Virus record (IMG/VR): IMGVR_UViG_3300022687_000025 | Coordinates: 1-38,116 of that record | Origin: a virus | Strand: one strand, 5' to 3' | DNA length: 38,116 nucleotides | Shown here: in pieces, positions 2,673-30,099 of the stretch | Layout of the letters: each line of letters begins with the position of its first letter | Numbering within the stretch: the first letter of the stretch is position 1 | Notes under the pieces: generated by a model | Database searches by the model: none | Seen by the model: the letters and a program-made list of their open reading frames with translations, nothing else | Told to the model about the DNA's origin: nothing | Made by a program: the position numbers and the translations under genes

Positions 2673-5600
2673 TCAAAATGCACCTCCTCCATTAATAAAC
2701 TGATTCTCGCTATTCAACTCCTCCAGCTCTTCGGCTTGTTCATTACCAATTACGGTTATGGCCTTAACCGGCTTTTGTAGTTGAGTCTTTAATTCCATCA
2801 TAACGCGGGTATTCATCTCAATCATATGTATGAGCTCGGCAGTATATTCGGTTTGCGGGTTTTCAAGTGATGAGCCAGAAGATTCTGAAGGCGGTGCTGC
2901 AGTGACTCCACCTAAAGCAAAACGAGGATAGTTGGCCGCTTGCATCACCTTATTGTAGTCGAGGCGTGGCTGCTTGCCAAAACGAGGAAACTGAATAGGT
3001 GCCCCGTTGCGATTAAGTGAGCTATGAAGTAAGGAATCAACTAAATCCCTATTATTCCTATACGTGTTCCGACTCAAAATCATATAAGGCTCTCCACCTT
3101 CCATCTCTCCTACCTTTTGCCTGGTAGTTGAGTTGATGAGATCTATTCCTCCAGAAGCGTGACTCGGACCGTCAGGAACCCCGCCAATTAGTCGACGAGC
3201 ACCTTTGCTAAACTTCGGGGGCTTCTGAGCTGCTATAATTGCTATCTGAGCAGCCGCGGCAACTCCAGCAGCAATGGCATTGGGCCAATTTGGTAGGGCC
3301 TTAATTGTAGCTAAGGCGCCGGCAATAACAGCTTGAAAAAGCGAGGCCCGCTTTTCTGCCTGCCATTGCTGAAGTTTGAGCTGGTTCTCTCGATTACGTT
3401 GCGATTCTGCTAATTGCTGTTTCTTACGCTGGTAATCTTCTTCAATTTTAGCTTTCTGAGATTCCGTGAGGCTCTTCCGAGATAGATCTCTTTGCATGGC
3501 GGCATCAAGTGAAGCCATTTCTCTCTCACCACGTTCTTGATTTGCTTGAATCGCCTCATCATTCTCTTGTCTTCGGTTGTTCGAGACGATTTGAGAAATG
3601 GCACCAAATACCTGCTCGCCCTGGCTAAGTAAATACTGTCCCATCGCCTGGCGTTTTTGTCGTTCGTATAGATCAACCGCATCTATGCGTTGCTTCTCAA
3701 TTTCTGCAAGTAGCTCTTGATTCTCATGCGCTTTCTCCCGCATATCATCGTATTTCGCATTGAGCTGTGCTAACTCATCTCCTTGGGCATCGCGGCGCAT
3801 ACGGAGAAGCTCCTCTTCAACAGATTTTTCCTCCTGCAGACGTTTTTCGTTTGCCTTGGCCTCTTCCTCTTCTTTTTTATTCCGCTCTTTTTCCTCCTCC
3901 TCTGCCTTCTTATCGCTGTACTTCTTATCAATGAGCTCAATTTCTTTTTGCTTCAGCTCTTCAAGTTGGGTGATATCCTGTTTCAAGCGTTTGCCTTCAT
4001 CAATAATCTTTGCATACTTCAGCTGAACGGCAAATACCTCACGCTCTTGTCCTTCCAAACTGGAAGTGGCCACTTCTTCATTAAGTCTGCTTAGATCGTC
4101 TAGGTACTTTTCTAAATCGCGCTTTTTGGCATCTAATAGGCGTTGTGCCTCCTTTCCTGATTTTTCATTCGCCTCTTTTTCAAATTTCTCCCGAGCTTCG
4201 AGAATTCCCTTGGCCATTGCCGATTGGGTATTCGTATTATCTGCTGCAATCTTTTGTAGCTCGATATTGGTTAGCTTGTTCAGATCAACCTTGGTTTCCT
4301 CTCCTTTTTTAACCGTTTCAACTACAGCTGCCGTTTGCTCGTTGACATAATTCACCATGGTAGCAATCTCACCCAGTGTTTTTGTTTGGCCCATACTAAT
4401 CACCCCAAAAAGTCGCGTGGTATTGGATTCGGTGCTACCGATCACCTCCCTGCCGGTGTTTTCAATTTCTTGAAGGGTCATCTGGACTTTGGCTCTTTGC
4501 TCACGAATCAAACTTTCGAACTCCTTCATGTCCTCCATTTCTTTTGGATCAAATGTGCGTCCTGCCACATTCATTTTTCTTCCAGCTCTTAGTTCCTTCT
4601 CGGCGAACATCAGCACATTGAGTTCATTGGCATATTCGATTGCCGCGTCTTTATTTTCTTCAAAGGCCTCTTTGGTTTTCACTTTTAGAATTTCCTTCTG
4701 TTGCTCAATGAACTCTTTCGATTTTTGCGTTGAAACACTGATTGCATTACCATATTCATCGAACTCAAAGGCTGTGAACGGTATCGTTTCACGCAACTTT
4801 TCAAGTATCCCCTGCATTTCCTCTTGTTCTTCCACGCTAGTTTCCGTCTGATTTTGCAATTCTTCGTAGCGCGCAATTAATGGGGATGTTTGCTTCTCGA
4901 GTCTGTTCACCTCATCACGCTGGCGGTCCATTGCATCAGAAGCTTGTTGTGCCGCTGTTTCAAATCCAAGAAAGCGGTTGGTAAAATCGACCATGCCACT
5001 AACGGTCTCTGGAGTGATCATCATAGAAAGAGAAGCTGAGACATTCTTGCTCAACTTCTCAAGCTTGGCCGCTGCATTTTCATTCTTCGTATTGAACTCA
5101 TCCAAAATTGAAGTCCCTTTGTCGTATTCATCATTTGCCAGGGCCTGTTGACCACGCAGGAAATCTGTTTTTCCAGCCAATGCCATAATAACGCTAGCAC
5201 CGCGGGCTCCATCCACTCCAAGTTTGGCCACATTTCCGGAGAGCTCCTTCATACCAGTATTATTCCCTTTCACTCCCTCCAGCACGCGAATAAATGCTTC
5301 GTTAACATCGGCATTCATCAAATCACTAAACTCCTGAAGGCCCATGCCTGCCATCTTTGCAAACTTGGGTGTGTCCTGGAACATATCGAGCAATACATTT
5401 TGAATGGCAGTACCACTCATTTCGGCTTGCATACCAAGATTATCGACGGTACTGGAGAGCCCGAGTATTTCCGGAACGCTCATTTTCGATTGCGCTCCAA
5501 CGCCTCCGAGCCGTTTGGTCATTTCCACCAAAAAGCCTTCAGCTGCCATAGAGTTTGCACCCAAGGCATTAATTGCCGATCCTGTTTTAAGCATGGCCTC

Positions 5601-6401
5601 CCCATAACCGTACTGCGCATTGGTACCCATGAGCTCATTAATTTTTCCAAGATTAACAATCGCTCCTTCGCCCAAGTCTTCGCCCAGCGATACGTTAATT
5701 TTATCTGCAGCATCAGTGAAATCGACAATATCCTTTTTACCCGTGATACCTAATTTACCCGCTTGTGAAGCAAGTTTGAGCAGTTCAGAACGCGAGGAGC
5801 GTGTATTGATACTGCGGAGCTCCTTGTCTAGTTCCTTGGTTTCCTTAATTGTTAATCCTGTCGTTTTAGCTACGTCGGCGTATGCATCTGAGAGATCACC
5901 GGCACGCTTCACCTGGTTCATAAAGCCCATTGCCAAACCGCTCAATGCACCAATTGCTGCAGCAGCCACGCCCAAGTATTTATTAAATCCATCAGCGACC
6001 TTGCCTATACCTCCTTTTAGTCGAGAAAGCATTCTGCCCGTTGCTCTTGCCTCGTTCTTTACTTTGACTAATTCGGCATCAATCTTCTTAAGCTGCTGTG
6101 CTGCGTTGCTTGCTGCACGAAGCTCCAAGGGCATCTGACTCAATTCTCTATTGAGCTCCCTTTGTTTGGCGCGAAGTTGCTGCAAGGTCGGTCCTAATTT
6201 GCCTGATAATTGTCCTTCAGCTTGAGAGATGCGGTGAAGCACCTTTTCACGCTCAGCTGTGACCTTATTCCACTTATCTGATCCTTGGGTTAGGTCGGCC
6301 AATTGGCGGTCGAGCTTGGCTATTAGCTTACGGTCTTTTTCTATGACTTTCTCCAGGGATCCATCATCGATAAAAATCTTTATTACACGGGTTTCTGCCA
6401 T
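2673..6401 (-). CDS. Phage tail tape measure protein
   Basis: About 1242 residues. The protein fixes tail length and is ejected with DNA. Residues 1-125 form a coiled coil, followed by a hydrophobic segment (about 130-158, LGVAAAAIGALSGLAMGF). A TP901-type tape measure core lies at about 165-430, then a very long Glu/Lys/Gln-rich coiled coil (about 480-1010), and a second hydrophobic patch rich in Ala and Ile near 1030-1065. The reading frame stays open upstream to 6503, but ATG 6401 (MAETRVIKIF) lies two bases after the stop of the preceding gene and begins the typical sequence, so I chose it. By the family rule of about 0.15 nm per residue the tail would be near 190 nm, which suggests a siphovirus. 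Confidence 0.95.
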   Translation of the reverse strand: MAETRVIKIFIDDGSLEKVIEKDRKLIAKLDRQLADLTQGSDKWNKVTAEREKVLHRISQAEGQLSGKLGPTLQQLRAKQRELNRELSQMPLELRAASNAAQQLKKIDAELVKVKNEARATGRMLSRLKGGIGKVADGFNKYLGVAAAAIGALSGLAMGFMNQVKRAGDLSDAYADVAKTTGLTIKETKELDKELRSINTRSSRSELLKLASQAGKLGITGKKDIVDFTDAADKINVSLGEDLGEGAIVNLGKINELMGTNAQYGYGEAMLKTGSAINALGANSMAAEGFLVEMTKRLGGVGAQSKMSVPEILGLSSTVDNLGMQAEMSGTAIQNVLLDMFQDTPKFAKMAGMGLQEFSDLMNADVNEAFIRVLEGVKGNNTGMKELSGNVAKLGVDGARGASVIMALAGKTDFLRGQQALANDEYDKGTSILDEFNTKNENAAAKLEKLSKNVSASLSMMITPETVSGMVDFTNRFLGFETAAQQASDAMDRQRDEVNRLEKQTSPLIARYEELQNQTETSVEEQEEMQGILEKLRETIPFTAFEFDEYGNAISVSTQKSKEFIEQQKEILKVKTKEAFEENKDAAIEYANELNVLMFAEKELRAGRKMNVAGRTFDPKEMEDMKEFESLIREQRAKVQMTLQEIENTGREVIGSTESNTTRLFGVISMGQTKTLGEIATMVNYVNEQTAAVVETVKKGEETKVDLNKLTNIELQKIAADNTNTQSAMAKGILEAREKFEKEANEKSGKEAQRLLDAKKRDLEKYLDDLSRLNEEVATSSLEGQEREVFAVQLKYAKIIDEGKRLKQDITQLEELKQKEIELIDKKYSDKKAEEEEKERNKKEEEEAKANEKRLQEEKSVEEELLRMRRDAQGDELAQLNAKYDDMREKAHENQELLAEIEKQRIDAVDLYERQKRQAMGQYLLSQGEQVFGAISQIVSNNRRQENDEAIQANQERGEREMASLDAAMQRDLSRKSLTESQKAKIEEDYQRKKQQLAESQRNRENQLKLQQWQAEKRASLFQAVIAGALATIKALPNWPNAIAAGVAAAAQIAIIAAQKPPKFSKGARRLIGGVPDGPSHASGGIDLINSTTRQKVGEMEGGEPYMILSRNTYRNNRDLVDSLLHSSLNRNGAPIQFPRFGKQPRLDYNKVMQAANYPRFALGGVTAAPPSESSGSSLENPQTEYTAELIHMIEMNTRVMMELKTQLQKPVKAITVIGNEQAEELEELNSENQFINGGGAF

Positions 6402-6403
6402 GA

Positions 6404-6883
6404 TTACAGGATATAAATATTGTTTTCTAAAATATCTGCATTGTGTTTCGCTACCGTATTGGCTAGCAATGGAACTGCCCGATCGATAACTGGATTGAAC
6501 CAAGGTTTTGGCTTGCGTGTTTTAGCTCCAAGCTTATCGCTAGGGCTTAAAAACCTACCAACAGCCCGCTTGTTATAGCCATGGGCTTCAAGGGCTTTGC
6601 GCTTTTTTGTATTTGTGAGGCCAAGAGCGCGACCTCCCACGGCATCGATTGGATGGCCCCTTCCTACTCCTTTGTGTACGAAAACTGCATGCTGAGGCAT
6701 CGCAAATCCAACTCCATTGACCTTGCCGCTATAGCGGAAATATTTGTCGCGGAGATAGCGCCGCATCTGACCGGTATAATTCTTAATACCGAGCCCCCGG
6801 ATCTCCGATTTCAAGGGTCCGATTTGAGACTTACCCCACTTAATAATAGCACCATTACGGTTGAGTAATTCTTGATTTTTCAT
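6404..6883 (-). CDS. HK97 gp10-like tail completion / minor tail protein
   Basis: Encodes 159 residues, very basic. A Lys/Arg-rich middle (GLTNTKKRKALEAHG), a VHKGVGRG strand-turn and a C-terminal motif KPWFNPVIDRAVPLLAN resemble the HK97-gp10-like family, whose members join the head-tail interface to the tail tube. The usual hallmark is a strand near 70 followed by a PF/PWF-containing C-terminal helix, and both are visible. The start overlaps the stop of the upstream gene by four bases, and the stop lies two bases before the tape measure start, so translation is probably coupled. The family call is by motif only. Confidence 0.6.
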   Translation of the reverse strand: MKNQELLNRNGAIIKWGKSQIGPLKSEIRGLGIKNYTGQMRRYLRDKYFRYSGKVNGVGFAMPQHAVFVHKGVGRGHPIDAVGGRALGLTNTKKRKALEAHGYNKRAVGRFLSPSDKLGAKTRKPKPWFNPVIDRAVPLLANTVAKHNADILENNIYIL

Positions 6884-17791: not shown

Positions 17792-19957
17792 TTACTTAAC
17801 CTTGATAAAATTGTCCTGTAATTGTTTCTCTTGGCTTAAACACCATTTTTTAAAGTGAGTAGTTGTTTCAGAAAATTCTTCATCGAGCAAGGCTCGTCCT
17901 TCTTTATCAATTTCAATTTCAAAAGTCTCATAATTGATTTTATAGTTCGGCGAGAAAAATTTCACGCGTTTGCTAGTCTTTACTTCATAACCGACTTTTT
18001 CGATGCCTTTGAAAAATACTTGATAGTTCTGCTCTTTCAGTTTTGTTAATTCTTTTTCATTTGGCTTGTAGGCAACAATGATTGAAGTGTTTACTCCGGT
18101 CTCCGCAAATACATTGGCTGGCAAGTCAAAAATGGCAACAATACGCATTTTATCCATTAACCATTTACGGGCGATTTTATGCGTATCAATACTAGCTATT
18201 GAATTGGATAAAACAATTCCCATTCTTCCATTCTCTTTCAAAATGCGGTAGGCATTTTCTAGAAACACTACACCTAAATCTATTTTACTCGCTTGCTTTT
18301 CGGCTTTCTTCTTTTTCCCTCCTGGTTGTAAATCGCCTTTATTGCTATACAAGTGCCAAAGCTCGTAGCATTGTATCATTTCCAAATCTTTATCGTCTTT
18401 TGGAACAAAGGCACGGTCTTCACCAAAAGGTGGATTAGTTAGGACTACATCAAATTTTTTGAGTTGGTTGTCGTCTGGTCTGTCGTCCCAATTCCCTTTT
18501 TGATTCATTGTTGGCACAAGATCAAGAATTTCGCCTTTGTGGTCAAACTTCGAAAGTAAAGAACCGTAGCCCGATTTTGCTTTTATTTTAGCGTTGCCAT
18601 CACCGTTCAAAAGCATATTCAAAGTTGCAAGCATCACCATTTGATCGTCAATGTCCATTCCGAAAATGTTGTTGTCGTCTAACTTGCTATTTGAGTTCAC
18701 ATATGAAACAGAGAGAAAATCGGCAATCCCTACTGTTGGGTCAATTACAGTTTCGCCATTTCTTGGATTTACAATACTTACCAAAAAGTCAATCAAAGGA
18801 AGTGGCGTAACAAATTGAGCATTTTGGTCTTTTGAAAATGGTGTCGCGAATTTGTAAAATACCAACTGATAAAGGTCAGTCTTATGAGAACGAACAAAAG
18901 AATAATCTTGAAACTGATAAACCACTTCAATCAATACTTTGATATGGTTTTCATTTTTTACGTTCAGTGGATTGTCTTTTAAGATTCGGTAATAAGTTCC
19001 TGCTGCTTCATCTCTTAAAGCACTGAACCGCTTTATAAACTCTTGGAGTGGCTTGTCGGCGAGGGTTTTGAAATTCTTTTCTTGGTCTGTATTGTAAAAG
19101 TCCAAAAAACGAATTGGCGTTTTTTCGTTTCTTTTTTCATCATAGATTTTGAGAGAAAGAATTTGAATGAGAATTTCAAACCCTTTTTGATTTACCATTC
19201 CAACTTTGTCCATTGTTCGCAAAATACTGCTCATTGCGTCATTGATTTGCGTTGAATGAACACCTGAAATTATGTCTAAGTCCGTGATTGCTCTTTTTGA
19301 ACGGTCAATTGCAAAAGTTTCTGTCCACTCTAATAAGTCTTCAAAAGTTGGAAGATTTATGTAAGGGTCGGGAAGATGTAAAGCCAATTCTTTTGTTTTA
19401 CTTTCCTCCCCTTTTGTGTTAAACTCTTCGCTGTATCGTAAAAACTTGTTGTTGTGTTTACGGAATAAATAAAGCCTTTCAGTGTCATACAAAACAGCCA
19501 AACAAAAAGGTCTACGACTTTCGTTTAAATATGCCTTGAGTTGTTTGTCCCAAACGTCTGCAACATTTTTGTTGTCTTCTTTTTTAAATTCAAGTGCAAC
19601 AATTAAATGTTCACGAAGCCACTCTAAACTTTCGTTGTTTCCATTCTCGTGGTAATCTTTGTATTTGTCAAACCAAGTAATGTCGTCAAAAATTGCTCCG
19701 TCAAGTTTTAGCGGTGCAGAAGATTTGTTGCCCTTTGGAAATTGAACTTCTGTCCCAATATAGTCTTTGGCAAAAAAACCTGATTGCACAATGGAATAAA
19801 GAAATTGCCATTTGTAATATTGTTCATTTGGTTGTCCGTTTTTCTTTTTAAAATTGGTTTTTCGTCCAAAAGTCAAATGCTCGGTTAGGAAACTGTCGTA
19901 TTCTGTTGCCGTTCTGTATTTCTTCTCAAATGCGTGTTTCGCTTCTGTAAATGTCAT
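17792..19957 (-). CDS. Fused nuclease and N6-adenine DNA methyltransferase
   Basis: About 721 residues from ATG 19957 (a GTG at 19996 would add 13 polar residues). The N-terminal part has a PD-(D/E)xK-like nuclease core: Asp86 in KLDGAIF, Glu123-x-Lys125 in ALEFKK and Gln139 in WDKQLKAYL. The methylase part (about 350-650) has motif I as IDPTVGIADFL (residues 405-415, in place of the usual DPxxGTGxF) and motif IV NPPF at 508-511. One polypeptide for cutting and methylation plus a separate specificity subunit is the BcgI-like (type IIB/IIG) arrangement; no HsdR gene is present. AT-rich, unlike its phage neighbours. Confidence 0.85.
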   Translation of the reverse strand: MTFTEAKHAFEKKYRTATEYDSFLTEHLTFGRKTNFKKKNGQPNEQYYKWQFLYSIVQSGFFAKDYIGTEVQFPKGNKSSAPLKLDGAIFDDITWFDKYKDYHENGNNESLEWLREHLIVALEFKKEDNKNVADVWDKQLKAYLNESRRPFCLAVLYDTERLYLFRKHNNKFLRYSEEFNTKGEESKTKELALHLPDPYINLPTFEDLLEWTETFAIDRSKRAITDLDIISGVHSTQINDAMSSILRTMDKVGMVNQKGFEILIQILSLKIYDEKRNEKTPIRFLDFYNTDQEKNFKTLADKPLQEFIKRFSALRDEAAGTYYRILKDNPLNVKNENHIKVLIEVVYQFQDYSFVRSHKTDLYQLVFYKFATPFSKDQNAQFVTPLPLIDFLVSIVNPRNGETVIDPTVGIADFLSVSYVNSNSKLDDNNIFGMDIDDQMVMLATLNMLLNGDGNAKIKAKSGYGSLLSKFDHKGEILDLVPTMNQKGNWDDRPDDNQLKKFDVVLTNPPFGEDRAFVPKDDKDLEMIQCYELWHLYSNKGDLQPGGKKKKAEKQASKIDLGVVFLENAYRILKENGRMGIVLSNSIASIDTHKIARKWLMDKMRIVAIFDLPANVFAETGVNTSIIVAYKPNEKELTKLKEQNYQVFFKGIEKVGYEVKTSKRVKFFSPNYKINYETFEIEIDKEGRALLDEEFSETTTHFKKWCLSQEKQLQDNFIKVK

Positions 19958-20195
19958 TCGGTCCTTATTTTTAATTCTTTTTAAATGTTGGTGCACTGCA
20001 AAAAGTAATGCTTTCTTGTTTTTTACCGTTTGGTTTTAGTGTTGGAAAAACCTAAATCTGTCTAATCGAGCCATGGCTATAGTTCATGTCGACATAACTA
20101 AACGCTATACGAATAAAACTTGCAAAATCTCATTAATTAACATACCAAAGTGCAACGAGTGTTTAAACGTCACCACTGCCTATTCCTTTTCTTTG

Positions 20196-20323: not shown

Positions 20324-21148
20324 TTACATCCAGCCTTCATCCGCAAAGCTGGCGTAACTGCTTTCAGTTAAAATAATATGGTCAAGGATTCGCATATCGA
20401 GCAACTCGGCACCTTCTTTTAATTTCTTGGTTAGGTTAATATCTGCGCTGCTTGGTTTAAGGCTTCCGCTGGGGTGATTATGACAAAGGATGATGCCGCA
20501 AGCATTGCCCATTAAAGCGTGTTGAAATATGATACGAGGGTCGGCAACTGTTCCACAAATACCGCCAGTGCTAATAGTGGCAAAGCCTAAAATTCTATTT
20601 GCTTGATTCAAAAGCAGTATTGCAAAGGCTTCTCTATGTTGGATAAATTCCTCGAATAATGGCCGCAAAGCGTCTTGAGCATCCTTCGAACCTCTCAGGG
20701 TTTCAGGCATTGAAATACTGCGCCCTGGGTTATACTTTACCTCTATTTCGTGGAAGGTCTTATATAAGACCTCCTCTTCACGTACTTCTGAGCTGGTCGG
20801 CTCTTCGGTGCGCTTGTATACTTGTTTATTGCTGAACAGGTAGCAAATAGGAAAGAATTCGTTTTTCTCGTCCTCTTCTCCTTCTTTGGTTTCCTTGTTT
20901 CCAATTTGGCGAGGCTTGCCCCATACGACAAAGGCTTGAGAACCTTTTGCAATGCTAAACCCGTCTTTTTTCCATTGTTCAAAAGTCTTGAAAACGGTGT
21001 TCCCGTCTTTCTTGTAAACCTCTTCAATGATTGCGGCGTTTAAGGTTTCGTAGGCTCCTTCTAAAACTAGGGGCTTCAATGGATTAGAAATTGTTTTAAG
21101 CTCTTCGCGTCTTTGTTTGGCTTTGCTTTCGTAAGTTTGTGTAGTCAT
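20324..21148 (-). CDS. ArdC-like N-terminus fused to RadC-type JAB/MPN domain
   Basis: Encodes 274 residues. Residues 30-80 (YETLNAAIIEEVYKKDGN, FEQWKKDGFSIAKGSQAFVVW) resemble the ArdC N-terminal (DUF1738) domain, which binds single-stranded DNA and protects incoming DNA from restriction. Residues 155-274 are a RadC-like JAMM domain with Glu173, His223-Asn-His225-Pro-Ser-Gly and Asp236, the metal-binding set. The linker is charged. Such fusions occur in Bacteroidota mobile elements. It is carried beside a restriction-modification pair. It follows a small helical gene with an 81-base gap that holds a hairpin, and it has its own terminator downstream. Confidence 0.8.
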   Translation of the reverse strand: MTTQTYESKAKQRREELKTISNPLKPLVLEGAYETLNAAIIEEVYKKDGNTVFKTFEQWKKDGFSIAKGSQAFVVWGKPRQIGNKETKEGEEDEKNEFFPICYLFSNKQVYKRTEEPTSSEVREEEVLYKTFHEIEVKYNPGRSISMPETLRGSKDAQDALRPLFEEFIQHREAFAILLLNQANRILGFATISTGGICGTVADPRIIFQHALMGNACGIILCHNHPSGSLKPSSADINLTKKLKEGAELLDMRILDHIILTESSYASFADEGWM

Positions 21149-24242: not shown

Positions 24243-24522
24243 GGTCTTTTTCTATTTGTACGGCCAGCTCGTCGATTTGCTTGAGCACCTTATTCATGGC
24301 ATGACTGCTCGATTGTTCGGCAAAGCGAATGTTCTTTACATTCAGCCGGTATTTCAAACGAAGTGAGCCCTTCAGGTAGGCAATACCCAGAGGATGTTTG
24401 CTGTTTTGGAAATCATCTGCATGTTGGGCATAATCGAGCTCGAGTATCATGCAGATCTCGCGGGGTGTCATAATCCCTTCAGCGAATTCCTCCACCTGGC
24501 TAAGTATAGTCGGTTCAATCAT
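24217..24522 (-). CDS. Small hypothetical protein, terminase-associated
   Basis: Encodes 101 residues. ITPREICM-like sequence (residues 18-29) followed by HPLGIAYLKGSLRLKYRLNV recalls HTH plus helix layouts of some small terminase or packaging accessory proteins. The C-terminus is a charged coiled coil (LKQIDELAVQIEKDREQQDQ). It overlaps both neighbours (4 bases upstream, 26 bases downstream), so it is firmly part of the operon. It may cooperate with the small-subunit-like protein that follows. No definite family is assigned. Confidence 0.55.
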   Translation of the reverse strand: MIEPTILSQVEEFAEGIMTPREICMILELDYAQHADDFQNSKHPLGIAYLKGSLRLKYRLNVKNIRFAEQSSSHAMNKVLKQIDELAVQIEKDREQQDQNR

Positions 24523-25061
24523 CCGACTTCCTCCCCTTTCTCCAGCATTTCATGGATATGCTTTAAATCCCACTGCACGACATTTTCATCTGCAGAAACG
24601 AGGATCCTTTCCTGTTTTGGATTGTTGGTCAGGTTTGCTGATCCCAGGATGGAAACATTCATTTTCTCGCCGATCAATACGATTACTTTTGCGTGACAAG
24701 GATGCACTCTTAGGCTCCGAAATAGCGTGCGGGCCATATCGAAAGCTTCAGGATGATCCTTTCGTGTGCGGAAATCGACGACGCCGGCGATGGAAGCAAT
24801 CAAGCCTGAAGTATGAAGGCGCAGTATTGATTTCATTGCGGGCACAGAAATAGACCAGGAGCATAAGTGTGCATCCGCCCTGCCTGTGTGTTGGAGTGCC
24901 GCTTCGAGTACTTGGTGCAAATGAAGTTTCCCTTCGTTCCAGATATGGATGGTTTCTCCAGGTGCGATTTGCTCCAGAGAAAAATTTGCTTTGCTTGTTT
25001 CAGAAACCGTGGACAGTTTTTCCGCTTGAGCTTCTTCTATTTTCGATTCGAACCAACTCAT
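24519..25061 (-). CDS. PLD-superfamily nuclease-like protein
   Basis: Encodes 180 residues with a single phospholipase D-type motif: His123-x-Lys125 (CHAKVIVLIG) followed by GSANLTNN at residues 140-147, the HxK(x)nGSxN form. One motif per chain means it would have to act as a dimer, as in Nuc-type nucleases. Residues 35-110 form the alternating alpha/beta half. No signal peptide is present, so the protein is cytoplasmic. It lies between packaging genes with four-base overlaps on both sides, which suggests a role in DNA processing during packaging or in degrading host or competitor DNA. Substrate unknown. Confidence 0.75.
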   Translation of the reverse strand: MSWFESKIEEAQAEKLSTVSETSKANFSLEQIAPGETIHIWNEGKLHLHQVLEAALQHTGRADAHLCSWSISVPAMKSILRLHTSGLIASIAGVVDFRTRKDHPEAFDMARTLFRSLRVHPCHAKVIVLIGEKMNVSILGSANLTNNPKQERILVSADENVVQWDLKHIHEMLEKGEEVG

Positions 25062-26468: not shown

Positions 26469-27017
26469 CTAAGGTTTCATGGTTACTACACCTTCATAGA
26501 ATGCCAACGTAGGTTGGAATGCTTCAAAGGTGAATTCGATTCCTGCAAAGCCTGCATCTGGAGTTCCGCTGGTCCATTTGGCTTCGATGCACCGGGCAGG
26601 CATATCTTTCAAACCAAACTGATTTACATCTGCACCGGCGGCTGCTTTTAGCTTGGTTGCTAAAACCATCACCTCGGCATTATTGTATTCAGCTTCAGCA
26701 GCTGCCACTTCTTTACCAGTGCCGTAGAAGAAGGCTTTGATTGTCCACTTCTTGTTATTGGATCCCCAATCACCCGCTTTTTCGCCTTCCCACATGTTTT
26801 TCTTGAAGTCGCCTTCCAACTCAATGAAACCATCGGCCACATCAAAAGTATGATCGGCCGTTATGGTAACGGCATCCTCTGGGTTAACGATAGGTGAGAC
26901 AAATTCACTAATGACGAGGAACTTATCGAATCGGGCAAGGAAAAGCGTGGCCGCAATTCCGCCGATATTGTCCTTAGCCGTGGCATAAGGACGTTTAATA
27001 CTTACTAATTCTCCCAT
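26469..27017 (-). CDS. Tail tube-like structural protein
   Basis: Encodes 182 residues, beta-rich and acidic, without membrane segments. Strand pattern FIELEGDFKKNMW, KWTIKAFFYGTGKE and the C-terminal IEFTFEAFQPTLAFYEG resemble major tail tube proteins, which polymerise around the tape measure. It lies downstream of the capsid gene. An outer capsid (decoration) protein is an alternative of similar size. It is separated from its neighbours by 3 and 11 bases, so it is co-transcribed with the capsid gene and would be made in large amounts. Confidence 0.55.
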   Translation of the reverse strand: MGELVSIKRPYATAKDNIGGIAATLFLARFDKFLVISEFVSPIVNPEDAVTITADHTFDVADGFIELEGDFKKNMWEGEKAGDWGSNNKKWTIKAFFYGTGKEVAAAEAEYNNAEVMVLATKLKAAAGADVNQFGLKDMPARCIEAKWTSGTPDAGFAGIEFTFEAFQPTLAFYEGVVTMKP

Positions 27018-27020
27018 GGC

Positions 27021-27482
27021 TTAGTCTTTTAGTTTAAGAACTGAGGAACCCATTTCAACAAGTTCTGCAGTAAGCGCTTTGTCTTTACGCAAAGCGTCTG
27101 CAGAGTGAGTAGCGCCTTTATGGCGGAAGGAAGGAATCATGACCAGGTACTTTTTACCGTCATGACTGATTTCAGGAAGTGCCCCTTTGGCGGGTTTGTT
27201 TTCCAATGCTTTTTGAAGCTCCTCATTTTCACCCAAAGCGGCTTCAAGGTCGGCTTCTAGTTTATTAAAATTGCCCTGAAGCGTCGTCACTTTTGTTTCA
27301 GCTTCTTGAAGAGCCTTGGTTCCTGTTTCAATATCTGTCTCGAACTTGGCAATTTTCGCCACAGCTTCGTCAGATGTTTTTTTAAGCTCGGCAACCTGGG
27401 CCTGAGCTTCTTTTGCAAACGCAAGCAACTCCTCTGGAGAGAGAGTTGCCACGTCTGCAGTAATGTCAATCTTTTTTGCCAT
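27021..27482 (-). CDS. Coiled-coil phage structural protein
   Basis: Encodes 153 residues. Residues 15-95 form a heptad-like coiled coil (AKEAQAQVAELKKTSDEAV to LEAALGENEELQKAL). Residues 105-153 form a small globular end with the phrase KKYLVMIPSFRHKGATHSAD. It stands between the capsid and tail-tube-like genes. The C-terminal phrase recurs in Bacteroidota prophages. A head decoration or capsid-assembly role is plausible; the protease-scaffold upstream already has its own coil, so this need not be the scaffold. Confidence 0.6.
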   Translation of the reverse strand: MAKKIDITADVATLSPEELLAFAKEAQAQVAELKKTSDEAVAKIAKFETDIETGTKALQEAETKVTTLQGNFNKLEADLEAALGENEELQKALENKPAKGALPEISHDGKKYLVMIPSFRHKGATHSADALRKDKALTAELVEMGSSVLKLKD

Positions 27483-27486
27483 GATA

Positions 27487-28707
27487 TTAAGCTTGATCGT
27501 TTGTGTACAATGGCTCTAGGTCTGCGATTTCAAAGCCGAGCAGCCATTTTGCAACGGATTTGTAGCCATGGAGGCTTTCAATGGTTTTGGTTACACCCGG
27601 AGTGCTGGAGAGATTAGTTCCAACGCGAAGGTTGGTTCCTAATACATCAAAGATTACACGACCAGAAGTTCCCATCCATGTGTGTTCACGGATTTCCCAT
27701 TTCTTACCAGAGCCATAGATGTACTTTTTACCATCGCCCATAGTTTGATTCAATACTTGTGGGAACACGTCTTTTTCGTGATCCAAGTATTTCTGGTACA
27801 CATCTGGACTCATGCGTACAATTCCTCCTTTGGCACGATGCGCAACGGTCATATCCTTGTAGATCAATTCTACCTTATCCAAGGCATTCGCATCTGTAAG
27901 CGCCCCAGTAACCACCGGAGTGATATTAGCTGCAGTAATTTCATCAGCGATGATTTTGGCTGGACCGTCAAAGCTTACAAGTCCATTTACTTCTTCCCAT
28001 TTTGCAGGGTGAGAAATTGGCGTTTCTCCGGGCGCAGTGATTGCAACTGCACGGTAGAAATTACTGTCGGTGTATTTCACATAATCCCCAATAGCATAAG
28101 CACTGGCAGGATTAAATGCCGCGGCATCGCTGTGAAATTCCTGAAGCCAGAAATTATCATTGATTTCAGACGCCAGTTTCTCCATCTCACGAGCCCAGAC
28201 CCATTGCGCAAAAGGAATGTCCTTAGCACCTGGCTGAATCATATCGCTCATGAAGCTTTCCAAGAGCCCTTCTTCTTCAGGGATGATTTTAAAGAGCTTC
28301 ATCATGTCATACACGAAAAGCTTACGACCGCTGAACCTGCGTTCTACCCTTCCGTTTTCTTCTACCTCAACATCCAAAGGACGCATTCCAGCAAGGGCGG
28401 TAAATTTTGGAAGTAGCTTACCATGGCGACTGACCATCTTATCTGTGGTCAAGTCTTTCATGATGTCTAAGCCGTTCAGCATCTGATTGAGCATCGTCTT
28501 GCTGTTTTTACCAGCCCATTTGGCGATTGCCTCCACATCTGTGGTTGCTGCCATCATCAATGCGCCAGGCATATTCGGAGTAAAAAGTGCAATTGCCGAA
28601 ATACCGGCAACGGCCACGGCAACGTCAATCCCCAGGACTACGTGCGCAAAACCTGACCCGAAAAGGATCAGTGTGGCGAGAGAAAATAAGGTGAGTATCC
28701 TTTTCAT
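27487..28707 (-). CDS. Major capsid protein with hydrophobic N-terminus and inserted CBM-like domain
   Basis: Encodes 406 residues. The HK97-type-like body includes the helix-rich region 60-195 and the C-terminal part with GGIVRMSPDVYQKYL and KSVAKWLLGFEIADLEPLY. Two features are odd. Residues 1-45 are strongly hydrophobic (LTLFSLATLILFG, DVAVAVAGISAIALF), like one or two membrane helices. Residues 198-241 match a CBM5/12-type fold: AYAIGDYVKYTDSNFYRA, then PISHPAKWEEV. ATG 28707 lies six bases after the protease gene, so the long N-terminus fits the tight operon; starts at 28572 or 28554 would leave a gap over 130 bases. The protease upstream could remove it during maturation. Confidence 0.82.
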   Translation of the reverse strand: MKRILTLFSLATLILFGSGFAHVVLGIDVAVAVAGISAIALFTPNMPGALMMAATTDVEAIAKWAGKNSKTMLNQMLNGLDIMKDLTTDKMVSRHGKLLPKFTALAGMRPLDVEVEENGRVERRFSGRKLFVYDMMKLFKIIPEEEGLLESFMSDMIQPGAKDIPFAQWVWAREMEKLASEINDNFWLQEFHSDAAAFNPASAYAIGDYVKYTDSNFYRAVAITAPGETPISHPAKWEEVNGLVSFDGPAKIIADEITAANITPVVTGALTDANALDKVELIYKDMTVAHRAKGGIVRMSPDVYQKYLDHEKDVFPQVLNQTMGDGKKYIYGSGKKWEIREHTWMGTSGRVIFDVLGTNLRVGTNLSSTPGVTKTIESLHGYKSVAKWLLGFEIADLEPLYTNDQA

Positions 28708-28713
28708 ACGATT

Positions 28714-30099
28714 TTAGATCATTCCCAATGAAGCCTTCATTTCTGCCAACTGGGCATCGGCGGGGCTTTTAAATTCATCGGCTTCAGGATCAATAGTCTC
28801 TGGATCCTTATCTGCTTTTGGTTTTTTCTTACCATCTGCAGTAGTAGAATCCTTCAATTCCTGAAGCTCAGTATTGGTTGTAGAATGAGCGTCTTGCTCA
28901 TCTTTAAGTGCCTTTTGTGCTGCGGACAAATCAGATTTGGCTTTCGCTAGATCTGATTGAAGCGTTTTCACGGTGGCATTTTCCGAAATCAATTTCGCAG
29001 CGTCAGCTTCGAATGAGGACGGAACAATAGACAAACCCGTGATGCCTTCGCCTTCCAGCTCTGCATTCACGGCATTGATATCCTCTTCAGATACCTCTTC
29101 TGATGTTTTCCCTTTTAACCCGCTAAGGGTGGGAAATTTGTTTCCAAACAGTGCCATATTAGATTGTGATTGTGATGTGCTTTTTTTGGTTCCTACCCGG
29201 TTGTAAACCGATAAGATTGCGTCTTCCATGGAGCCAATGCGATCGGCCAAACCGATTTTAATTGCTTCCTCTGCGAAGTACATTTTGCCAGTGAACGGAT
29301 CACCTGCAGAGAGGTCGATTTTGTCGCCTCGATTGGATTTTATTGTATTGATAAAAGTTTCGGCAAGGAAATGCAGCTCGGCCTCTACCTTCTGGTAATT
29401 GCCTTTTAGTGCTTCCTTATAATCGCCGTTTTTGTCGCTTGATTGTGGTGCGTAGATCTGATGAATCTTGATACCAAGCTTATCGAAATATCCTTGGTAG
29501 TCTGCCAATTGGGTATAAACCCCAATGGAACCGATCATATCGGTTGGCTGACTAAGCAGGATTTCATCACAGCTGGAAATGGTCCACATTCCTGCAGAAG
29601 CGGCCATTCCATCATCAACAAATCCAGCTGTTGGTTTAGAACAGTTCCGGATCGCATCTGCAAACGTTGCGGTTCCATCTACCATTCCTCCTGGCGTATC
29701 ATGAACGAAAATGAGCCCTTCGATTTTTGAAGAGTCTTGTGCTTCACGCACCCAGCGGGTCATGTCTGCAGATCCAGGAACGCCGCAGTTGTAATACTTG
29801 GAAATAGGCCCTACAACGGGAATCATGGCAATAGATCCTTTCGGTGCCTCGTCGAACGAACGGTAGAAGCTAGCGCGAACGGTACCGGCAGAGACATCAA
29901 TCACGCGAGGCATGTTGATCAAGTCTTCCTGCATCCATTCCGGAGCATTATTCGGTAAAGAGGAAATAGGTTTTGAGGGATACGAAACAGCCTTACCCTC
30001 GAGAAGCGCGGCCACAAGAGCCAAATTGGCCTCCGCCCATGCCGGGTCTAAAAGCCAAGGTTTAGAAAGGATTGCTGATATGAGTCCGTAGTTCTGCAC
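28714..30099 (-). CDS. S49-type prohead protease fused to scaffold-like C-terminus
   Basis: Encodes 461 residues. The SppA/S49 protease domain spans about 75-300, with DTPGG at 134-138 and the nucleophile Ser168 in GMAASAGMW; the Lys partner is probably among residues 223-228 (KNGDYK). Residues 320-461 form a coiled coil, AKLISENATVKTLQSDLAKA, then an acidic Lys-rich tail, like a built-in scaffold that the protease removes. The start is GTG 30099: a stop codon lies directly before it in frame and no ATG is available. It heads the capsid unit and is read from promoter element A. Confidence 0.88.
   Translation of the reverse strand: MQNYGLISAILSKPWLLDPAWAEANLALVAALLEGKAVSYPSKPISSLPNNAPEWMQEDLINMPRVIDVSAGTVRASFYRSFDEAPKGSIAMIPVVGPISKYYNCGVPGSADMTRWVREAQDSSKIEGLIFVHDTPGGMVDGTATFADAIRNCSKPTAGFVDDGMAASAGMWTISSCDEILLSQPTDMIGSIGVYTQLADYQGYFDKLGIKIHQIYAPQSSDKNGDYKEALKGNYQKVEAELHFLAETFINTIKSNRGDKIDLSAGDPFTGKMYFAEEAIKIGLADRIGSMEDAILSVYNRVGTKKSTSQSQSNMALFGNKFPTLSGLKGKTSEEVSEEDINAVNAELEGEGITGLSIVPSSFEADAAKLISENATVKTLQSDLAKAKSDLSAAQKALKDEQDAHSTTNTELQELKDSTTADGKKKPKADKDPETIDPEADEFKSPADAQLAEMKASLGMI

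Follow-up and report, generated by a model that had tools for sequence, protein, structure and literature searches.

The window, a stretch of 38,116 nucleotides of viral DNA, encodes an HK97-fold major capsid protein with an inserted segment that, by homology and predicted fold, is a CBM5/12-type domain. The segment has kept the core of this chitin-binding family and lost its known chitin-binding face. We give a probability of roughly 0.45 to the reading that a phage-type module with the CBM5/12 fold is passed between virion proteins and, on the head surface, provides weak, multivalent adhesion.

The capsid protein and its inserted segment

The features of the capsid region are as follows.

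27487..28707, (-): major capsid protein, HK97 fold, with an inserted domain; 406 aa; assigned by Foldseek and an annotated homologue
28555..28707, (-): hydrophobic, signal-peptide-like N-terminal leader, residues 1-51; similar leader in L002, L007-L010 and others (L numbers denote sequences found in our searches)
28153..28212, (-): helix, residues 166-185, immediately before the insertion; DSSP of the AF2 model
27970..28140, (-): whole inserted stretch, about residues 190-246; from alignment with insert-less relatives, boundaries accurate to a few residues
27994..28119, (-): putative CBM5/12-fold domain, residues 197-238; Pfam CBM_5_12 match
28714..30099, (-): S49-family head maturation protease, directly upstream of the capsid gene

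A preliminary description of this DNA had placed a CBM5/12-like domain at residues 198-241 of the 406-aa reading frame at 27487-28707 (-). Its coordinates and motif letters are correct: these residues correspond to 28116-27985 (-), and the motif reads FNPASAYAIGDYVKYTDSNFYRAVAITAPGETPISHPAKWEEV. No capsid model in Pfam, PHROG or NCBIfam recognises the 406-aa protein, and a PDB sequence search with the whole protein gave no match. We nonetheless find that it is an HK97-fold major capsid protein, as had been proposed, because of its homologue, its neighbour and its predicted fold. The annotated major capsid protein of Microcystis phage Mea-Yong924-1 is a homologue (tblastn, E 5e-13), and the protease directly upstream matches the phrog_53 head maturation protease at E 2.5e-58 and Pfam Peptidase_S49 at E 9e-19. 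Foldseek of the full-length AlphaFold model found the capsids of SU10, P4 and phiRSA1 together with encapsulins, all with prob 1.00 and a best E of 1.7e-6; confidence in this model is modest (mean pLDDT 57, pTM 0.52), with only 10 sequences in the alignment behind it.

About half of the capsid family has a signal-peptide-like hydrophobic leader of ~35-60 aa. We observed it in the window protein and in L002, L007-L010, L040, L049, L077, L084 and L103, while the leader-less capsids L006, L012, L047, L066, L096 and L118 start approximately where the leader ends in the others. Since the upstream protease belongs to the S49 (SppA-type) family, the leader may be a removable propeptide. Downstream of the capsid gene, the genes at 26469-27017 and 27021-27482 (-) encode proteins of 182 aa and 153 aa, the latter a coiled coil, with apparent counterparts both in L006, whose capsid has the insert, and in L024, whose capsid does not. 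Coiled-coil matches of the 153-aa protein were discarded as chance or composition, as were weak Pfam matches such as MmgE_PrpD_N.

Single-protein scans of viral contigs with the window capsid or the Microcystis capsid returned no relatives, and relatives were obtained through alignments and degenerate motifs instead. One segment-bearing relative, L006, lies in a Chitinophagales metagenome-assembled genome and has 52% identity; six further bearers (L007-L012) came from a profile search of IMG/VR, and motif scans yielded sixteen more, giving 24 insert-bearing capsids. Because either the insert motif or the spine-helix motif was used to find these sixteen, the set gives no measure of how frequently bearer-clade capsids are without the insert. 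The segment is missing from at least eight more distant relatives (L002, L014, L024, L026-L029 and L033), in which the long helix leads through a short loop (e.g. NALYLGVYNGAGTAAADTVTGWGTII) into the next helix. Because these more distant relatives are without it, the segment is, as judged by the alignments, an insertion, in agreement with the preliminary description.

In an unrooted core tree of eight bearers and eight non-bearers, built with the insert removed, a single branch with local support of 0.995 separates the two groups, and no insert-less member was found within the bearer clade of this tree of 16. The single split is consistent with one acquisition or one loss, either being allowed because the tree is unrooted. 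Overall, the insert diverges about as fast as the shell. It is slightly less conserved than the shell in the eight capsids found independently of the motif, and its conservation in the 24-member set is biased upward by the THPAKW search. The divergence of insert versus shell does not separate an adhesive from a structural role.

Homology, predicted fold and binding residues of the insert

Pfam CBM_5_12 aligned to residues 197-238 along the entire model (positions 1-44 of 44), with E 0.002 and 18.5 bits in the whole protein and E 8.9e-5 and 22.9 bits for the excised segment, both under the curated cut-off of 26.2 bits. The orthologue L006 matched at the same place with E 3.3e-5 in the full protein and exceeded the cut-off only when excised (28.7 bits); L010 (E 0.0013) and L011 (E 0.011) also matched there. 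When the PDB was searched with a profile of eight homologous inserts, the best sequence match was the CBM12 of Bacillus circulans chitinase A1 (ChiA1; PDB 1ED7), with E 3e-5. Because the Pfam match is full-length and orthologues match independently, the CBM5/12 motif match in the capsid is real and well above chance at the level of sequence.

Folded alone with seven homologues, the 56-aa segment reached a mean pLDDT of 86.4, with 94-95 in the core, and is predicted to adopt the CBM5/12 ski-boot fold with its small antiparallel sheet. Nearly all of its Foldseek matches are either CBM5 chitin-binding domains or modules from the tail fibres and spikes of phages. The closest folds are the CBM5 domains of Streptomyces griseus ChiC (1WVV/2D49) and Serratia marcescens ChiB, with rmsd of 1.3-1.8 A over 45-46 columns and prob 1.00; also matched were Vibrio chito-oligosaccharide deacetylases and the tail fibres or spikes of phages 7-7-1, Milano, Pam1, A-1(L) and APK16. 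The E-values are weak, 0.018 at best, as a chain this short would lead one to expect. In the full-length capsid model the insert has pLDDT <50, and the model leaves its pose on the capsid unfixed. Altogether, the insert profile, the stand-alone fold and the Foldseek matches uphold the CBM5/12-like domain of the preliminary description, with homology resting on sequence and the fold on prediction.

In the CBM12 of ChiA1, chitin is bound by Gln679 and Trp687, and in CBM5 it is bound by a Tyr-Trp or Trp-Trp pair plus a third aromatic, while the core consists of a Tyr and a Trp (PMC8449059). The 24 insert-bearing capsids retain the core aromatics that mark the family (Y265 and W299 of CjCBM5, Y662 and W696 of ChiA1): the equivalent of Y662, an aromatic at 656 and at 675, and P689 are present in 24/24, and the position of W696 is W in 23 and F in one. 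For most of the added sequences, P689 and W696 belonged to the motif used in the search, which did not cover positions 656, 662, 675, 679 and 687. The binding residues are a different matter. Position 687 is Q in 14 and E in 10 of the capsids, Gln is found at the 679 equivalent in 0/24, and so the insert lacks what makes a CBM12 chitin binder. Nor does it have the exposed aromatic pair and third aromatic of a CBM5 binder: no capsid of the 24 has an aromatic between the second core Tyr and Gly, the place of the CBM5 pair, a non-aromatic residue stands three positions ahead of the core Trp, and their place is not taken by any other conserved and exposed platform of aromatics. These alignments show the fold kept and the known chitin-binding face lost. 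Since the CBM12 and CBM5 binding residues are replaced in 24/24, canonical chitin binding by the capsid module is unlikely, and the ligand is probably something other than chitin.

The loop that carries the search motif is not confined to capsids. A PxTHPAKW scan of viral contigs found the signature in many non-capsid proteins. One of them is the tail fibre L129, whose N-terminus is of the T7 type and which scores 38.8 bits against CBM_5_12, above the cut-off; two others, L088 and L137, have matches among head-tail adaptors (phrog_195, Mu gp36). Two positions ahead of the P of PxTHPAKW, at a residue outside the search pattern, Q or E stands in 19/19 capsid hits and 82/85 other hits. We therefore regard the module as a phage-type CBM5/12 subfamily with the signature TTAG[QE]SPxTHPAKW, recurring in several virion proteins as Ig-like domains do, and the shared loop suggests a role independent of protein context. 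CBM5/12-like THPAKW modules were also seen in L048, L050, L058, L060 and many more, and in L086, L088, L137 and L146; among the proteins bearing the signature are head-tail adaptors of the Mu gp36 type and a large set of phage proteins with lengths of 254-292 aa, of which the two members tested matched no family.

Site in the shell and possible roles

In the full-length model the insert is preceded by helix 166-185 and followed by helix 249-259. By HK97 topology, helix 166-185 would be the spine helix (PMC5701804, PMC8538268). In HK97 the spine helix is broken at its end by a glycine-rich G-loop (PMC5701804); in phiRSA1 the G-loop has 22 residues and locks the neighbouring E-loop (PMC8538268), and in P74-26 it contacts the E-loop and the decoration protein and acts as a structural lock (PMC6775164). 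From the order of elements we infer that the insert sits at the G-loop place of related HK97-fold capsids, since no sequence-level alignment to a solved capsid was obtainable (an insert-less profile found no capsid among PDB sequences, which leaves the placing without a sequence anchor). Such a site would put the insert on the outer surface near neighbouring subunits, where adhesion and clamping are both plausible.

The reading that we favour is that a phage capsid protein acquired a folded CBM5/12-type module in the loop after the spine helix, and that the module can move between capsid proteins, head-tail adaptors and tail fibres. Each capsid subunit would most likely expose one copy on the outside of the shell, as an integral decoration domain, and hundreds of copies per virion are probable because the module is inside the shell protein. 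Its likely function is to adhere, weakly and multivalently, to a polymer on the surface of the host or of its biofilm, with mucus or particles as further candidate targets, and this adhesion would operate without the known CBM5 or CBM12 chitin-binding residues. Adhesion is ranked first because a conserved loop in different virion positions points to a context-independent property, most simply polymer binding. Adhesion modules often vary faster, and the similar pace of insert and shell counts against this reading, as do the loss of the chitin-binding aromatics with no aromatic platform instead, the weak Foldseek E-values and the low confidence of the insert in the full-length model. The structural locking by the G-loops of phiRSA1 and P74-26 (PMC8538268, PMC6775164) also counts against it.

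That last point leads to a close rival, possible and placed second, in which the module acts as a G-loop that has grown into a folded unit. It would lock the adjacent E-loop or link capsomers to one another in the manner of a cement protein, and its sugar-binding ancestry would no longer matter. The position after the predicted spine helix, the presence of P4 and phiRSA1 among the best fold matches, the contacts of the P74-26 G-loop with both E-loop and decoration protein (PMC6775164), the lost carbohydrate-binding residues and a divergence about as slow as that of the shell all speak for clamping. However, the signature loop is shared by tail fibres and head-tail adaptors, which offer no E-loop to lock, and insert-less relatives retain the same neighbouring head genes, so there is nothing obvious for which the insert would compensate. 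We consider rather unlikely the further-reaching reading that a phage-specific, CBM5/12-derived module with a new binding specificity, the conserved Q/E and a K standing in for the aromatic platform, is lodged in the capsid G-loop, coats the whole head with polysaccharide-binding sites and is shuffled among capsid, neck and tail proteins.

Canonical binding of chitin or a mucin-type ligand through the CBM5/12 face, as the preliminary description proposed, fits the fold and family match and the occurrence of L006 in a Chitinophagales genome. The substitutions at the Trp687 and Gln679 equivalents and the missing aromatic of the CBM5 Tyr-Trp pair (PMC8449059) make it improbable, and on chitin the proposal found no support. 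Harder still to credit is a passive ornament. On this view a mobile domain entered a tolerant loop in a single ancestor and has persisted with no function of its own; there is one apparent acquisition and the site is tolerant, but the module has been kept in at least 24 diverged capsids with the fold core intact and the loop conserved, and the bearer clade of the tree yielded no insert-less member. Finally, that the segment is capsid core matched by chance, the outcome that the preliminary description had set against a separate domain, is suggested only by its low confidence in the full-length model and is very improbable, being contradicted by the insert-less distant relatives, the orthologue matches and the confident stand-alone fold resembling CBM5 structures.

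Comparison with known systems and other genes of the window

Like the CBM12 of ChiA1, the insert has the core Y662, the aromatics at 656 and 675, P689 and W696; unlike it, W687 and Q679 are replaced in all 24 capsids, and the ChiA1 domain is at the enzyme's end whereas the insert is inside a capsid protein. CBM5 domains are its closest folds, although it is without their Tyr-Trp or Trp-Trp pair and third surface aromatic. The fibre and spike modules of phages 7-7-1, Milano, Pam1, A-1(L) and APK16 have the same predicted fold but are present in few copies at the tail tip or neck, compared with potentially hundreds per virion for a capsid module. The I-domain of P22 and the BIG2 domain of phi29 are likewise extra folded domains within the shell protein itself, with folds unrelated to CBM5/12; the I-domain is inserted in the A-domain sheet (PMC5701804), and the CBM5/12 insert comes after the putative spine helix. 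T4 Hoc, an Ig-like decoration protein, is comparable in that it has been proposed to present a carbohydrate-interacting module on the head (PMC7602432), but it is a protein of its own, with Ig folds, located at the centres of capsomers.

Both elements are thus already known separately, domains inserted into HK97-fold capsids on the one hand and CBM5/12-like modules of phage tails on the other. A CBM5/12 module in a capsid protein was not described in the literature searched, a search whose scope excluded most subscription journals, and the CBM5-in-phage literature found concerns tails or bacteria and no capsids. On phage heads, the known carbohydrate-interacting folds are mainly Ig-like, either as decoration proteins of their own or as extensions of the coat. 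With a CBM5/12-fold module as part of the shell protein, a whole phage group would have a dense, obligatory display of a possible adhesin, and capsid adhesion could be tested by deletion of one loop. That the chitin-binding residues are uniformly lost, and that the module is used again in neck and tail proteins, poses the question of whether it has a binding target or is a structural building block.

The phage type is indicated by two further genes.

1-1314, (+): integrase; phrog_1, E 1.2e-27
2673-6503: tape measure protein

The presence of an integrase and a tape measure protein indicates a temperate, long-tailed, siphovirus-like phage. Between the head genes and the terminase lies a conserved gene (24519-25061 (-) in the window, 10576-11220 in L006, 6739-7410 in L024), in which an HxK...GSAN-type motif is suggestive of a phospholipase-D-like fold; its Microcystis phage counterpart is apparently annotated as a polyphosphate kinase. 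The reading frame at 20324-21148 (-) fuses an ArdC-type N-terminal domain (Pfam ArdcN, E 2e-6) to a RadC-like JAB domain (E 6e-38), and 17792-19996 (-) encodes an N6 adenine methylase of the Eco57I type, 734 aa in length.
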